A stretch of 64,000 nt of DNA from Acidiferrobacterales bacterium (lineage in GTDB: Bacteria > Pseudomonadota > Gammaproteobacteria > Arenicellales > JAJDZL01), in contig JAPPIB010000049.1 of the NCBI GenBank assembly GCA_028820695.1, positions 1-64,000 on the forward strand, written 5' to 3'. The notes beneath the pieces are model-generated. The model was given only the letters and a program-made list of their open reading frames with translations, made no database searches and had not been told where the DNA came from. How positions within the stretch are numbered: the first letter of the stretch is position 1; every line of letters starts with the position of its first letter. The position numbers and the translations under genes are program-made. Positions 52,596-59,381 of the stretch are shown here, piece by piece.

Positions 52596-53078
52596 CTAGT
52601 CTGTAACGCGCACGCCCACCAGTTCAAAGTCCCAAAACAGAATGCCTTTTTGGACGGCGTTCCTGAAACTGATATTGTCCTGAAAATCCCTGGCCTGGCG
52701 GGGTGGGACATTGAGCGCGACAAAATCGACCTGCTCACCGATGACCGGGCATTCGTCGGTCACGGTTTCGGTACCGGAGGGGCAGTCGCGCAAGGTTATC
52801 TTGACCAGGACATCGGTGATAACCTTGCTGGAAGAATTCGATACGCGCCCCGAATAATCCCAGCTCTCGCCATAAGACTCCTCAGCTTTCACGTCATCAA
52901 GCTGAACCAATTCCCTTTCTATCGGAAAACCTGCGGTTGAGGATTCATCCAGGTTCAGAAAGTAAAGCGTTGCGACGAGCGCACCCACTGCACCGAGCAG
53001 GCTGAAACCGACTTTTGGAGAATAGTAACTGACTACGACAAGCGCAGTGCACACGATAGCCAATGCGATCCAATGCAT
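52596..53078 (-). CDS. Hypothetical membrane-anchored protein
   Basis: The 160-residue protein has two hydrophobic segments at the start (about 3-20 and 24-44), then a soluble beta-rich domain from residue 60 with one cysteine pair (RDCPSG and DECPV). It resembles a FxLYD-like beta sandwich exposed on one side of the membrane. I do not recognise the family. A large inverted repeat lies 19 bases upstream of its start. Confidence 0.6.
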   Translation of the reverse strand: MHWIALAIVCTALVVVSYYSPKVGFSLLGAVGALVATLYFLNLDESSTAGFPIERELVQLDDVKAEESYGESWDYSGRVSNSSSKVITDVLVKITLRDCPSGTETVTDECPVIGEQVDFVALNVPPRQARDFQDNISFRNAVQKGILFWDFELVGVRVTD

Positions 53079-53096: not shown

Positions 53097-53146
53097 GTAA
53101 CTACTTACCCCTCAATTTTACACCTCCTGAGGGGGCAAGTAGTTAC
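53097..53146. repeat. Large imperfect inverted repeat between two divergent transcription units
   Basis: The left arm GTAACTACTTACCCCTCA (53097-53114) pairs with TGAGGGGGCAAGTAGTTAC (53128-53146) with one bulge and one mismatch, around 13 bases. It could be an operator, a stem in the leader RNA of the membrane protein, or a dispersed palindromic repeat. Only one copy was noticed in this window. Confidence 0.6.
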
Positions 53147-53189
53147 TGCAGGAGTTTATGAATTTTGTAATTGACAGCGACTGCAGCGG

Positions 53190-53555
53190 ATGAAGTATCG
53201 CGAAAATCTTCCCGCTGGATGCCCACCCGCAGATGCTGAGAGTATCGAGAATTATCGATTCATCTTCAGACCAGTGCGACAAGAACAGCCAGCAAATGAT
53301 GATTTCAAATCGCAACGAGCGAAAAATCCAACTGCTGATTTTTATGGGGTATCAGAGTGTCAGGCCTTGGGACTATCAGTTCATACGACAAAAGATGCGT
53401 CTGAATAAATGAAAAAACTGCCCAAATTTCGCAAATATATGATTTGTCGTGTGAAATTGAAAAGTGGTGCGGCGAGGATTCAACAAACGGGGTCTTGTTC
53501 TTTTCACCATATCTGGTGGCCATTCGTCAAATGCGATATGCGTATTCGCTGGTAA
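53190..53555 (+). pseudogene. Small conserved-type protein interrupted by an in-frame TAA
   Basis: The frame codes 72 residues, starting MKYRENLPAGCPPADAE, stops at TAA 53406-53408, and continues in the same frame from ATG 53409 to TAA 53553. Both parts look like one protein: ENLPAGCPP, FRPVRQEQP, DFKSQRAKNP and SECQALGLSV before the stop, then LPKFRKYMICRVKLKSG and HHIWWP after it. I recall small proteins of this layout, about 120 residues, encoded beside DUF6575-type genes. A nonsense mutation is the simplest reading; reinitiation at the adjacent ATG could still give both halves. The second gene begins eight bases past the final stop. Confidence 0.65.
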
Positions 53556-53563
53556 ATTGTTTC

Positions 53564-54064
53564 ATGGAAAATCAAATGTTGAATATTCGTTACAAGTCGA
53601 CTCTATTTGAGTACGACGGTCCGCAAGTTTTTGAAGCGAGAGACCGAATAGGGGGGGGGCGCTATATCGCGGTAGCGGTAGAAGACAATGGGACAGATTG
53701 TCAATATTTGGTAGTTGGAACCGAAGTGGAAAAACTCCGCAAATTTCGTACAGGCGAAATGGACTTGCGTTCTTTGATTGTCGACTCCAGTCAGCACGGA
53801 TGGTATTTGACTCTATCTGATGCAAATAAAGATGAACCGGTAACAATACAGCCACAGTATGGCAGTTTGCACGAACAGGATAATTTACCTGAACCAGATT
53901 TTTTCTTGCATGACAGTCCAGCAACAAATACTCTAATTGCAGAGACACGTTCCAGAGACAATTCAGTTGTGCAAGTTGCTTCTTCGGTAATGATCTCCTC
54001 GCCTAAGCGAGATCGGGGTTTTGGTTTCGAATGGCTGCAGATGCCAGTAATTGCCGGGCAGTGA
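53564..54064 (+). CDS. DUF6575-like protein
   Basis: The 166-residue product begins MENQMLNIRYKSTLFEYDG, followed by VFEARDRIGGGRYIAVAVED near residue 22 and KLRKFRTGEMDLRSLI near 56, which fit my memory of DUF6575. Function unknown. ATG 53564 is chosen because it lies directly behind the frame of the small upstream gene, implying coupling; an upstream in-frame ATG is possible. A run of nine G within codons 29-32 could make the gene phase-variable. It converges on sbcC with 25 bases between. Confidence 0.7.
   Translation: MENQMLNIRYKSTLFEYDGPQVFEARDRIGGGRYIAVAVEDNGTDCQYLVVGTEVEKLRKFRTGEMDLRSLIVDSSQHGWYLTLSDANKDEPVTIQPQYGSLHEQDNLPEPDFFLHDSPATNTLIAETRSRDNSVVQVASSVMISSPKRDRGFGFEWLQMPVIAGQ
53651..53659 (+). 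repeat. G9 homopolymer inside the DUF6575-like gene
   Basis: Nine consecutive G form three glycine codons in frame. Poly-G tracts of this length slip during replication, and a change of one base would shut the gene off. Confidence 0.8.
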
Positions 54065-54089
54065 TATGCCACAATTTGCGCTATAGGTG

Positions 54090-57000
54090 TCAATAAGCAA
54101 CGTTGATCCCTTTGCATCCTGGACCGTCAATGCGGCTTTTCCCTCCAGATTGCTGGGTGACTCGGATTTGGGTGTTTATCCTTTCGCGAAGGGCGGGGAC
54201 ATGAGAAATAAGACCAATCAGTTTGCCTTGCGCCTGCAATCCGGTCAGCGTGTCTAAAGCGATATCGAGCGCTTCCTCATCGAGTGTTCCGAATCCTTCA
54301 TCAAGGAACAGCGAATCGACGCTGACGTTTTGGCTTGCCATGTGTGACAGGCCGAGTGCCAGCGACAGGCTGACAATAAAGCCTTCTCCGCCCGATAAAT
54401 TTTTCGCGGTTCTGATCTCGCCGGCCTGATAGTTGTCGATGACGTTGATTTCCAATGGCTGGTGTTCCTCGCGAGTCAGCACATAACGATCTGTCATTTT
54501 CTTCAGTTGCTCGTTTGCATAGTAGATCATCACTTCAAATGTCAGTCCCTGAACAAAACTGCGATACTTGTTTCCATCGGCCGATCCAATGATGGCGTGC
54601 AGGTTATTCCACTTGTCATGCTCTTTTTGCTGGGCGTCCACTTGCTCTTTCTTTATCTTCCAGCCCTCCTTCGCTTTCTCGTTGTCTTCCAAATTCTGTT
54701 CGAGTGCGCCGATTCTTTCACTTATTTTTCTTACCACGCACTTGTACTCATCCAATCGCGCTTGAAGATCTTCAAGTGACTTGTCCGTAATTTTCTTGTC
54801 TTTTTCCGTCCGTAATTTCGACTCCGCGTCCTTGATTTGAGCCTCAAGGGAAACTTTCCTTTCGTTCAAATCATTAAATTCAGTTTCGAGAATCCCAATC
54901 TCGTGCTGAGTCAGCCTGGCATCACAGAAATCCTTCTCATCTGTGAAACCATGCGTCTTAAGCGCGACTTCAAATGCTGGTTCCAGTTCTTGCAGATTTG
55001 ATTCCTCATTGGCGATCTCTTTTAACAGGGTAGTTTCCTTAGTTCTTGCCTGAAGCAATTCGTTTTCTTTTTCTCTGAATTCTTCTTCGACTTTCTGCTT
55101 GGTTTCTTCGGCATGCTTAACAGCTTGTCTCAAGGCCTCTTCTTCCTCATCAGGGTTCTTGTCACCAAACAGATCTTGTCGTTTTCGCTCTTTCGCGGAA
55201 CACTTTCTTTCTTCTTTATCCAAAGAATCTTGAAGCTCATCGACCGATTGTTTGCGGTCGTTCAATTTGGCTTGCAATCCATCGATCCTGGCCTGTATTT
55301 CCGTACGCTGTTCCTGCAATTTGATCTTTCTTTCTACATGGGTTGTCCAAGAGTCTCGCCTCTCGATGAGCTCAACGTAAAGCTCTATGGCATCTTCAGG
55401 AATGCTTACAACTCCCAAGGGCTTGAGTTGATCAAGGATGTTCGATTCGATGATTTCATATTCAGTTCGAAGTTCTTCGAGTTTCCGTCGAATTTTCAGC
55501 AGACTGCTTTGTTTGGCAGTGATATCCTGCGACGATAGTTTAACCTTGTATTCAGCGGCCGAAACCGCATTGGATGCCTTGGAAGTGATCTCTTCGAGTT
55601 TTTTGATTTCTTCCTTAAGTTCCTCACGTTGGTTGATCAAAGAATTGATTTCTTCAGAGTCGAGAACATGACTGGGAAATTCTGGCAGATCTTTCTCATC
55701 TTTATGTTCTGTTGATCCGCAAACCGGACAAGGTTCGCCGTCTTTGAGTTTTGCTTGAAGTTCTCCCAAGACAACACTGGTATTGTTTGCGTCAATCTGC
55801 ACCTGCAACCGGTCAAGCTGAAGTCGATTTTCATCGTAATTGTTCTGTTCTCTTTTCAAAGTCTTCTCAAGAGTGCTTAACGACTCCTTCCTCTCGTGAA
55901 GCAATATTTTCGCTTCATCGCAGTCTCCGCGAAGTTCATCGTGTTCACTGATATTGTTTTGGATGTCTCGAGATACTCGGTTCAGGTTGCTTATGTCAGC
56001 TTTGACACTCTGTAGATTTTCGACCAGCCATTTATCAGCTTCGTCAGTTCTCAGATACGCGGCGGTCGCTTCAATTTGTTCCTCGATTGAATTGAGCTCC
56101 TTTTTTTCTGCATTAAATTGCTTGTCTAACGACTCGATCTCTTCTTGCATGGTGTGGATTTTGCTTATCAAACTTTGAATCGAATCTCGCATGACGCGAA
56201 TTCTATCGTCGATGAGTCGGACCTCAGTGATCACAGGAGCTATAGTTTCCTGTGTTGCTTTTGCTTTTTCGAATACTTTTATCGCTTCCTTAAGCTTTGC
56301 ACTCAAATTTTCAACCTGAGGCTCCAAAACTCGAATCTGAGAAGAATTTTCTTCGACAGAATCCCGATGTCCTTGAAGACGTTGACGAGAACCTGAGAGT
56401 TTTTGGTATTCAACTGCGAGTCGAAGAGCTTGATTTGCTCTTTTGAGTCTAACCTTTTTCGGAGCGAAGTTATCAATCTCGATTTGCAATTCCTCAAGAC
56501 TTTGCTTCAACCCGGTTATTACTTTCTCTAACTGGTCGATTGTTTCTCGCCACTGAATCGCCTTGCCGGTTTTGTCGATTTTTGCAGTGACTTTACGGAG
56601 TTTTGCTTGTTTCGCTTGAAGTTTACGCCTGATTCTTTTTTCTTCTTTTCGCGTGAGTACATGGATATTCTCTAACTCAAATTTCAACTTTTCGAGTTTA
56701 GACCGCTCAATCGTTCTTCGCTCATGCACCGCTATTGAAATGTCGCTATAAACTTCAGTCCCTGTAATTTGCTCCAGAATCGGTGCTCGCTCTTTGGGCT
56801 TGGCATTCAGAAACGCAGCGAAATCCCCTTGCGCAAGCATCATTGAGCGAGTGAATCGGCTAAAGTCCATGCCGGTCAAATATTCAACTTTGTTTGCAAC
56901 CCCAGCTATGCCTGTTACCAGAATCTCGCCGGTATCATGTTTAGAGATTTCATGCTGAGGTGCCTGGAGATTTCCGTCCGGTTTGTTGCCGGCCCGCCTT

Positions 57001-57293
57001 TGACTCCAGTAGCAGCGGAAGCGGTCTTCTTGGGTTTCGAACGTGACTTCAGAAAAACATTCGCCCGTTTGGCGCGACATGATCTCGTTGGTACTCTTGG
57101 TGACCTTGTTCAGACGCGGAGTGCTTCCATAAAGCGACAGACATATCGCATCGAGTATTGTGGATTTGCCGGCCCCGGTGGGACCGATGATCGCGAAGAT
57201 GCCATCCGCTTCAAATGCCGGGTTTTTAAAGTCGATTGTCCATTCACCGGCCAATGAATTCAGATTCTTGAATCGTATCTGCTGTATTCGCAT
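54090..57293 (-). CDS. sbcC: SbcC, SMC-like subunit of the SbcCD nuclease
   Basis: SbcC is the ATPase of the SbcCD (Rad50-Mre11 type) complex that cuts hairpins and blocked DNA ends. The 1067-residue protein has Walker A GPTGAGKST near residue 36, a Q-loop SMMLAQGDFAAFL near 147, coiled-coil arms meeting at the zinc hook EPCPVCGSTEH near 510, the signature NLSGGEGFIVSLSLALGLS near 965, and Walker B SLFLDEGFGTLD near 994. I use ATG 57293, where MRIQQIRFKNLNSL begins; the frame is open further upstream into sbcD. The gene follows sbcD with ten bases between. Confidence 0.95.
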   Translation of the reverse strand: MRIQQIRFKNLNSLAGEWTIDFKNPAFEADGIFAIIGPTGAGKSTILDAICLSLYGSTPRLNKVTKSTNEIMSRQTGECFSEVTFETQEDRFRCYWSQRRAGNKPDGNLQAPQHEISKHDTGEILVTGIAGVANKVEYLTGMDFSRFTRSMMLAQGDFAAFLNAKPKERAPILEQITGTEVYSDISIAVHERRTIERSKLEKLKFELENIHVLTRKEEKRIRRKLQAKQAKLRKVTAKIDKTGKAIQWRETIDQLEKVITGLKQSLEELQIEIDNFAPKKVRLKRANQALRLAVEYQKLSGSRQRLQGHRDSVEENSSQIRVLEPQVENLSAKLKEAIKVFEKAKATQETIAPVITEVRLIDDRIRVMRDSIQSLISKIHTMQEEIESLDKQFNAEKKELNSIEEQIEATAAYLRTDEADKWLVENLQSVKADISNLNRVSRDIQNNISEHDELRGDCDEAKILLHERKESLSTLEKTLKREQNNYDENRLQLDRLQVQIDANNTSVVLGELQAKLKDGEPCPVCGSTEHKDEKDLPEFPSHVLDSEEINSLINQREELKEEIKKLEEITSKASNAVSAAEYKVKLSSQDITAKQSSLLKIRRKLEELRTEYEIIESNILDQLKPLGVVSIPEDAIELYVELIERRDSWTTHVERKIKLQEQRTEIQARIDGLQAKLNDRKQSVDELQDSLDKEERKCSAKERKRQDLFGDKNPDEEEEALRQAVKHAEETKQKVEEEFREKENELLQARTKETTLLKEIANEESNLQELEPAFEVALKTHGFTDEKDFCDARLTQHEIGILETEFNDLNERKVSLEAQIKDAESKLRTEKDKKITDKSLEDLQARLDEYKCVVRKISERIGALEQNLEDNEKAKEGWKIKKEQVDAQQKEHDKWNNLHAIIGSADGNKYRSFVQGLTFEVMIYYANEQLKKMTDRYVLTREEHQPLEINVIDNYQAGEIRTAKNLSGGEGFIVSLSLALGLSHMASQNVSVDSLFLDEGFGTLDEEALDIALDTLTGLQAQGKLIGLISHVPALRERINTQIRVTQQSGGKSRIDGPGCKGINVAY

Positions 57294-57303
57294 TTTTGCC
57301 TCC

Positions 57304-58542
57304 TTATACGGACATCGTGTCCTGTTCAACGATAGAAGCAAGAATCTCTTTGTGAGCATCGCGCAAATCACAGATCTGTTCGTCCGGAACTTGATGCGCC
57401 TCCAAACATTGTTTGAAAATCTCATTGGGTTCGAGTTCTGGAAGTTTTCCTTCGTTACCTAGGTCAGGTGGTTTAACGCCGATGTTGCGATTGTTTTTCA
57501 CCCGAAGAATTTCAATTTTGCTGTTGTCTATCTCCTGTTCCAAATCATTGCGCAAGCTGGCGCGGACTTCAGCGCTGTCGTACACCACGTCAAGCCAGAC
57601 ATTTTTTCCAGCAGCCTTGAGATCTGCGATGCCCTGCGAGATGTCATTCCAATTCCCTTTTAGAAGTTTCAATTCTTGGAAAACGGGTATTTCGATTTGT
57701 GTAACCGATGGAGCGGTGCCTTCAAATTCAACCATACAGACAACTTTTTGCTGCCCGGCTTCTCCAAACCCCATTGGCAGAGGTGAGCCGCAGTAACGAA
57801 TGGTTTCTTGTTGCCCGACCCGCTGTGGGATATGAAGATGACCCAGTGCAACGTAGTCGAAGCATTTTGGGAATATCCCGCCTGACACATGAGCCAGTGA
57901 ACCAACGTACAGTTCACGGACACCATCACCATCTTCGACCTTCCCGCCCGCTGCGAACAAGTGTCCCATACCGACAATGGGCACATCAACATTCAATGTA
58001 CGTCGTTTTTCTTCGGCGACTTGTCCGACTCGCTGGTAGTGGCGCCGAATTCCCTCAATCAAATTTTTCCCTTTATCTTTAATGCTTTCACCAGGTATTG
58101 CAGTACGAATATCCCTGTCTCTCAAATACGGCACAGCGCATACGATCGCTTCGGGCAGATTTTGTTCATCGGAAAGAACCAGCACTTCGTCTTCCGGCGT
58201 GTCTGGTGTGATGCTGCCCACCACGTGAACATTGAGCGACTTTAGCAAGCTCTTCGGTGCATCCAGAAACGTCGGTGAATCGTGATTGCCGCCGATAATG
58301 ACGATGTGGCGGCATTTCGATGCGGCCGCTTGATGCAATAAGTCGTAATAGATTTCCTGAGCTCGGTTGCTCGGCGTGGCGTTATCGAATATGTCACCCG
58401 CGACAAGCAGCACATCGATGCTGTTCTCTTTCACCGTCTCTACCAGCCAGGCAAAGAAATTCTCAAATTCTGCGAAGCGCCTTTTCCCGTATAGAGTGCG
58501 CCCAATATGCCAGTCAGAAGTATGGAGAAATTTTATGGACAT
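57304..58542 (-). CDS. sbcD: SbcD, nuclease subunit of SbcCD
   Basis: SbcD is the Mn2+-dependent Mre11-type nuclease. The 412-residue protein has the metallophosphatase motifs HTSDWHIG near residue 8, VAGDIFDN near 48, IIGGNHDSP near 84, GMGHLFAAG near 185 and LGHLHIPQ near 226. The C-terminal part forms the capping and SbcC-binding region. I start at ATG 58542 (MSIKFLHTSDWHIGR). Confidence 0.95.
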   Translation of the reverse strand: MSIKFLHTSDWHIGRTLYGKRRFAEFENFFAWLVETVKENSIDVLLVAGDIFDNATPSNRAQEIYYDLLHQAAASKCRHIVIIGGNHDSPTFLDAPKSLLKSLNVHVVGSITPDTPEDEVLVLSDEQNLPEAIVCAVPYLRDRDIRTAIPGESIKDKGKNLIEGIRRHYQRVGQVAEEKRRTLNVDVPIVGMGHLFAAGGKVEDGDGVRELYVGSLAHVSGGIFPKCFDYVALGHLHIPQRVGQQETIRYCGSPLPMGFGEAGQQKVVCMVEFEGTAPSVTQIEIPVFQELKLLKGNWNDISQGIADLKAAGKNVWLDVVYDSAEVRASLRNDLEQEIDNSKIEILRVKNNRNIGVKPPDLGNEGKLPELEPNEIFKQCLEAHQVPDEQICDLRDAHKEILASIVEQDTMSV

Positions 58543-58873
58543 ATTCTTTACCTTGAATCGGGCCGCCGACCTTGAAAAACTGGCCGGCTGCCAATACACA
58601 GCGCGCACATAGTGCCGCAAATAATTTCGATTGGATATTTAGAATTCATTGTCTATTGCGTAACTTTATCCGTAATCCGTCTTGTTCTCAAACTTCCTGG
58701 CAGTCTGTGAGAGTCTGGTGCGTCACAAGATGAAAATCAGTGTTTGGTTGACACCAAAAATCGCTGAACTAACAGGTTCACCGTGCTGCATTCGTTTCAG
58801 CCAGCCAAACATGCCAGGCACCGCCTGTCTCGTAACTTGATTACCTGGCATACCCAGCAAGACTGAAATGTCA

Positions 58874-59071
58874 CTAACCCCTGATCTGTCGAGCACCAGT
58901 ATTGAGACCGCTGTCCCGTATCGCATAGTTCATATTATTTCCGTTGATCAGTCCGATAATTCTTAACAATTCCAGCAATACCGCGTCAAGCGGGAGTGGG
59001 AAAGTATAGACGGCTTCAATATTTCGGTTTTCAAGACTTTCATAAATCTGGGTTACCGCGACTTCCGACAT
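58874..59071 (-). pseudogene. Fragment of a VIT-domain protein
   Basis: A 65-codon frame contains VAVTQIYESLENRNIEAVYTFPLP followed by LDAVLLEL, the hallmark of the vault/inter-alpha-trypsin (VIT) domain that precedes VWA domains. The frame then breaks off and no VWA domain follows in any frame. Upstream bases on the same strand also read like VIT sequence but are interrupted by stops. It is a remnant of a larger gene between sbcD and ttcA. The rest of 58,543-59,381 holds nothing I recognise. Confidence 0.65.
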
Positions 59072-59381
59072 CAGTCCCCGCAGTTTTGCCTGAAAATCGA
59101 CAGATTCAAGAATACACTCCTCCCCAGATGAAGGGTGTTCAACTTGTCCATTGCCAACGTGTTCCTGTGCGTTTTCGGATCACTGTCAGCAATCCGTTTG
59201 CGGAAAACAGGTGTCAATCGACCTCTGACCGGATGAGAATCATCGAACTTTCGCTAGTCTTGCCATGAGCCTGATGTTACTGATCGGAAGCAATGCATTC
59301 CTGTGGATTGCAGAATTTGAATGACGTGCAATTGGGTGAGAGATACAAAACATTCTGTAAAATACTTCAGGGTTCTAACCA

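Follow-up and report, generated by a model that had tools for sequence, protein, structure and literature searches.

Gene 1 and its internal stop codon

The window analysed here, a 64,000-nucleotide stretch of DNA from an Acidiferrobacterales bacterium, contains a small gene that is interrupted by a single stop codon and followed closely by a second gene. The question is what this pair is, and whether the interrupted gene is broken or is expressed in some unusual way. A sequence-only reading had proposed a toxin-antitoxin or defence cassette in a variable region, in which the first gene was either crippled, suppressed or translated into two peptides.

Gene 1 is a frame of 121 codons on the forward strand that contains a TAA at 53406 with an ATG immediately 3′ to it. 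The 5′ part (53190 to 53408), predicted to encode a PD-T4-10_A-like antitoxin, starts with the ATG at 53190 and has 72 codons before the premature TAA at 53406–53408. The 3′ part (53409 to 53555, same strand and frame) has 48 codons running from the ATG at 53409 to the TAA at 53553–53555, and includes an HHxWWP motif. These frames are as the sequence-only reading had drawn them, and homology joins the two halves. The pair is intact in G005, a genome of the same genus (contig OY282380.1, an Arenicellales MAG), where gene 1 encodes 132 and gene 2 encodes 389 amino acids, and the two genes share a 4-base ATGA overlap. The stop-free G005 gene 1 product spans both halves of the window gene (54% identity over query residues 2 to 117, E = 5.8e-38). 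Because a single chain aligns with both halves, at a level far beyond chance, the two halves are, on the strength of this homology, one protein. Conserved motifs are retained on each side of the TAA, namely CPP, GVSECQA and GLSV in the 5′ part and ICRV, IQQTG and HHxWWP in the 3′ part.

We compared 18 homologous loci: the window, G005, two further genomes of the class, one further genome of the order, ten genomes from elsewhere in the phylum, two plasmids and one viral contig. The frame is uninterrupted across the TAA region in 15 of the 18. The exceptions are the window itself; G533, a single-contig genome in which gene 1 (L033 1411–1882) is frameshifted in the same linker that holds the window TAA and adjoins a full-length gene 2 of 382 amino acids; and G475, in which an internal deletion joins gene 1 to gene 2. 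Homologues ending at the window's TAA, which would mark the first half as the complete protein, occur at none of the 17 other loci.

One interpretation of the ATG that directly follows the TAA is that translation reinitiates there, so that gene 1 is made as two peptides that reassemble into a working antitoxin. Conservation is equal in the two halves, and the G533 frameshift, located in the same linker and next to a full-length gene 2, is in keeping with such an arrangement. However, the 15 unbroken chains speak against it, the Met after the TAA is not conserved (it is Leu in G005), and in G533 no start codon for the second half is present near the break. Moreover, gene 2 of the window is truncated, as described below, and thus no antitoxin is obviously needed. 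We regard synthesis in two pieces as quite unlikely. Another scenario is that the TAA arose in sequencing or assembly and that gene 1 is intact. It is a lone stop in the frame of a gene that is otherwise well conserved, in a genome that is a 58-contig draft, but the neighbouring sbcC, sbcD and ttcA genes are open and the truncation of gene 2 exceeds what a base error could cause, which leaves this scenario with very little probability. A third possibility is that the TAA is suppressed or recoded. No supporting point was found for this, and read-through would carry translation past the terminal TAA at 53553 as well, neighbouring genes are normal under translation table 11, and homologues have no stop at the TAA position; we consider it extremely improbable.

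Several other sequences were noted in or near gene 1. An 11-codon open reading frame at 53158–53192, which has a good AGGAG site and shares an ATGA overlap with the start of gene 1, is possibly a leader peptide or a product of chance. The 25 bases at the 3′ side of the TAA (53407–53431, encoding KKLPKFR) are repeated at 84% identity in gene 2 (53724–53748, EKLRKFR), and the G005 proteins show a similar likeness at the protein level (KLSKFR and EKMRKFR). The cassette gave no match to Rfam families, and no promoter or terminator at it was convincing.

Gene 2 and its lost C-terminal part

Gene 2 (53564 to 54064, forward strand) begins with the ATG at 53564, eight bases past the final TAA of gene 1, as had been noted before, and ends with a TGA at 54064 after 166 codons. 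It is predicted to encode a 3′-truncated DUF6575 protein resembling the PD-T4-10_B toxin. The mention of DUF6575-type genes in the sequence-only reading was borne out by a match to Pfam PF20215 (29.5 bits against a cut-off of 26.6) that covers only positions 21–139 of the 218 in the model. Over residues 1–133 of the 389-residue G005 protein, gene 2 shows 52% identity, and beyond that none. The homology corresponds to 53576–53980 and ends near residue 139, so that about 135 of 389 residues are matched; the last approximately 27 codons are unrelated to the homologues, and the remaining approximately 256 residues of the G005 protein are encoded nowhere in the window. Judged by this alignment (166 against 389 amino acids), gene 2 is damaged too, its C-terminal two-thirds being gone, which the sequence-only reading had missed. 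Its stop codon and the end of the convergent sbcC gene are separated by 25 bases. Gene 2 also contains nine consecutive G residues (53651–53659) and thereby exceeds its G005 and G420 counterparts by a single glycine codon; this tract could be subject to slippage or prone to error.

At most other loci, gene 2 encodes at least 330 amino acids. In G420, a genome of the same taxonomic order, it is short (138 amino acids) and stops at the same domain edge, next to an intact gene 1. One could therefore envision that the N-terminal DUF6575 domain alone is functional and that the system in the window is altered, not dead, and the frame of the window N-domain is indeed intact and not accelerated. On the other hand, the longer form prevails elsewhere, the short one is found in only two of the three carriers among 109 genomes of the order, the tails of these two are unrelated, and gene 1 of the window is broken. 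We think that a functional short form is quite unlikely here. A combined version, namely that PD-T4-10-like systems exist in a short form consisting of just the DUF6575 N-domain and an antitoxin that tolerates being in two pieces, with the window and G420 as two stages, seems highly improbable. In the viral contig (L040 5380–6445), the gene 2 relative consists of two overlapping open reading frames of 187 and 170 amino acids.

To estimate how old the damage is, we counted residues specific to the window and to G005, using G420 as the outgroup. The ratio of window-specific to G005-specific residues was 6:7 before the TAA and 5:3 after it in gene 1, and 13:12 for the N-domain of gene 2. Because there is no excess of window-specific changes, the stop, and the damage in general, are probably recent; by these residue counts, the pair bears no sign of long neutral drift. 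The dN/dS ratio adds little because synonymous sites are saturated.

Relationship to PD-T4-10

Both genes match PADLOC components of PD-T4-10, which agrees with the toxin-antitoxin or defence cassette proposed by the sequence-only reading. As described by Vassallo et al. (2022; PMC9519451), PD-T4-10 of E. coli consists of two overlapping open reading frames, which encode the antitoxin 10A and the toxin 10B. Experiments in that study showed that 10B is toxic and that 10A neutralises it and could not be deleted; protection against T4 was gone without 10B, and the pair aborts infection by T-even phages (PMC9519451).

Gene 1 of the window matched PD-T4-10_A with an E value of 1.3e-5 when X was placed at the stop, and the 5′ half alone with 3.3e-5. 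Among homologues, the match was 2.8e-9 (nearly full length) for G420 and 5.7e-5 for G005, and all six gene 1 proteins tested matched the model. The match of gene 2 to PD-T4-10_B was weak in the window (1.5e-3) and stronger in G005 (4e-4) and G362 (4.1e-7), and involved the same N-terminal region as DUF6575. PDC-M63B, a phage-defence candidate in PADLOC, matches the C-terminal part (residues ~117–390) of intact gene 2 relatives, the part that is absent from the window gene.

As in PD-T4-10, the window genes are adjacent, in the same order with the small gene first, and match both models, and their intact relatives have overlapping reading frames and sit among defence genes. Unlike PD-T4-10, the window genes are 8 bp apart and do not overlap, neither is of full length, and the sequences are distant, with PADLOC E values of 1e-5 to 1e-3. 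Because the scores of the window genes are weak, function at the family level is inferred across a large distance: toxicity, neutralisation and abortive infection of T-even phages are properties of the E. coli system, whereas the window pair is known here from its sequence.

A search of 369 genomes of the class with the PADLOC model returned nothing at 1e-5, and we therefore searched with our own alignments. A three-row alignment searched against genome contigs matched G005 alone. The pair is carried by 3 of 109 genomes of the order, including the window and G005, and distant homologues also occur in Pseudomonadota outside the class, Cyanobacteriota, Actinomycetota and a viral contig. That contig held the one distant relative found among viral contigs, and phage records gave no credible match. 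No meaningful match emerged when solved structures were searched by sequence. AlphaFold models of the intact G005 proteins, built from alignments of 4 and 3 sequences, had pLDDT values of 44.8 and 35.9, too poor for fold searching.

Genomic setting

The pair lies in a 6.3-kb variable stretch (53097–59356) that also holds sbcC (54090–57425, reverse strand) and sbcD (57304–58620, reverse strand) and is missing in the sister genome G004. There, the gene for a 160-residue protein (52596–53078 in the window) and ttcA (59382) flank no cassette, and approximately 93 bases between them are unmatched. Among the six genomes of the genus, SbcC was found in no other. The locus thus varies across the genus, as the sequence-only reading had supposed. 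The left edge of the stretch, where homology to G004 stops, is a near-perfect inverted repeat (53097–53146; RNA fold z −4.6), which may be the end of a mobile element. One other copy of its left arm and loop is present in the genome (G000:C17:2262–2298; L001 1501–1537), between a type I restriction hsdR gene and argH. Between sbcD and ttcA, approximately 740 bases (58621–59356) hold no clear gene and are absent from G004.

In G005, the site between the 160-residue protein gene and ttcA (L020 8400–10060) contains two matches to group II intron D1-D4-6, which are relics. The G005 pair is elsewhere in its genome, between type I restriction-modification genes and a PDC-S11 gene; the G362 pair is 3′ of a PD-T7-4 gene (1.8e-92), and that of G420 precedes a DNA methylase gene. 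Such surroundings are typical of mobile defence.

Discussion

Homology, operon order, the truncation, the nonsense codon and the variable location, all seen here, lead us to conclude that the window pair is quite probably what is left of a decaying PD-T4-10-like toxin-antitoxin (abortive-infection) operon, and most likely a commonplace instance of erosion in a defence gene pair. Among the fates proposed in the sequence-only reading, "crippled" has the best support, given that the C-terminal two-thirds of gene 2 are missing as well; positive evidence emerged for neither suppression nor two peptides.

The roles of antitoxin, toxin and abortive infection are taken from the E. coli literature. By analogy with that system, an antitoxin of approximately 130 amino acids (gene 1) would restrain a DUF6575 toxin of approximately 390 in the intact form, and phage infection would free the toxin and stop cell growth. 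In the window, the C-terminal two-thirds of the toxin gene would have been lost, probably through a deletion that fused gene 2 to sequence flanking sbcC on its 3′ side. Shortened in this way, the toxin is probably inactive, which would have released the antitoxin gene from selection, so that its loss was tolerated, and the antitoxin gene would then have gained the nonsense codon. The order of the two losses, like the loss of function itself, is our inference. Two observations are counterpoints to decay. The equally short gene 2 of G420 accompanies a gene 1 that is intact, so that a toxin of this length could be functional. In addition, the broken gene 1 of G533 together with a full-length gene 2 is hard to reconcile with the principle that the antitoxin cannot be dispensed with.

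The window pair is a member of an already known type of system, and it extends PD-T4-10-like toxin-antitoxin pairs to the Arenicellales. It suggests a route of decay in which the toxin first loses its C-terminus, after which the antitoxin can break as well. The distant homologues yield a conserved antitoxin motif, HxxWW, and set the conserved N-domain of the toxin apart from its variable C-terminal part; both the motif and this division are useful for working out the mechanism of PD-T4-10-like pairs.
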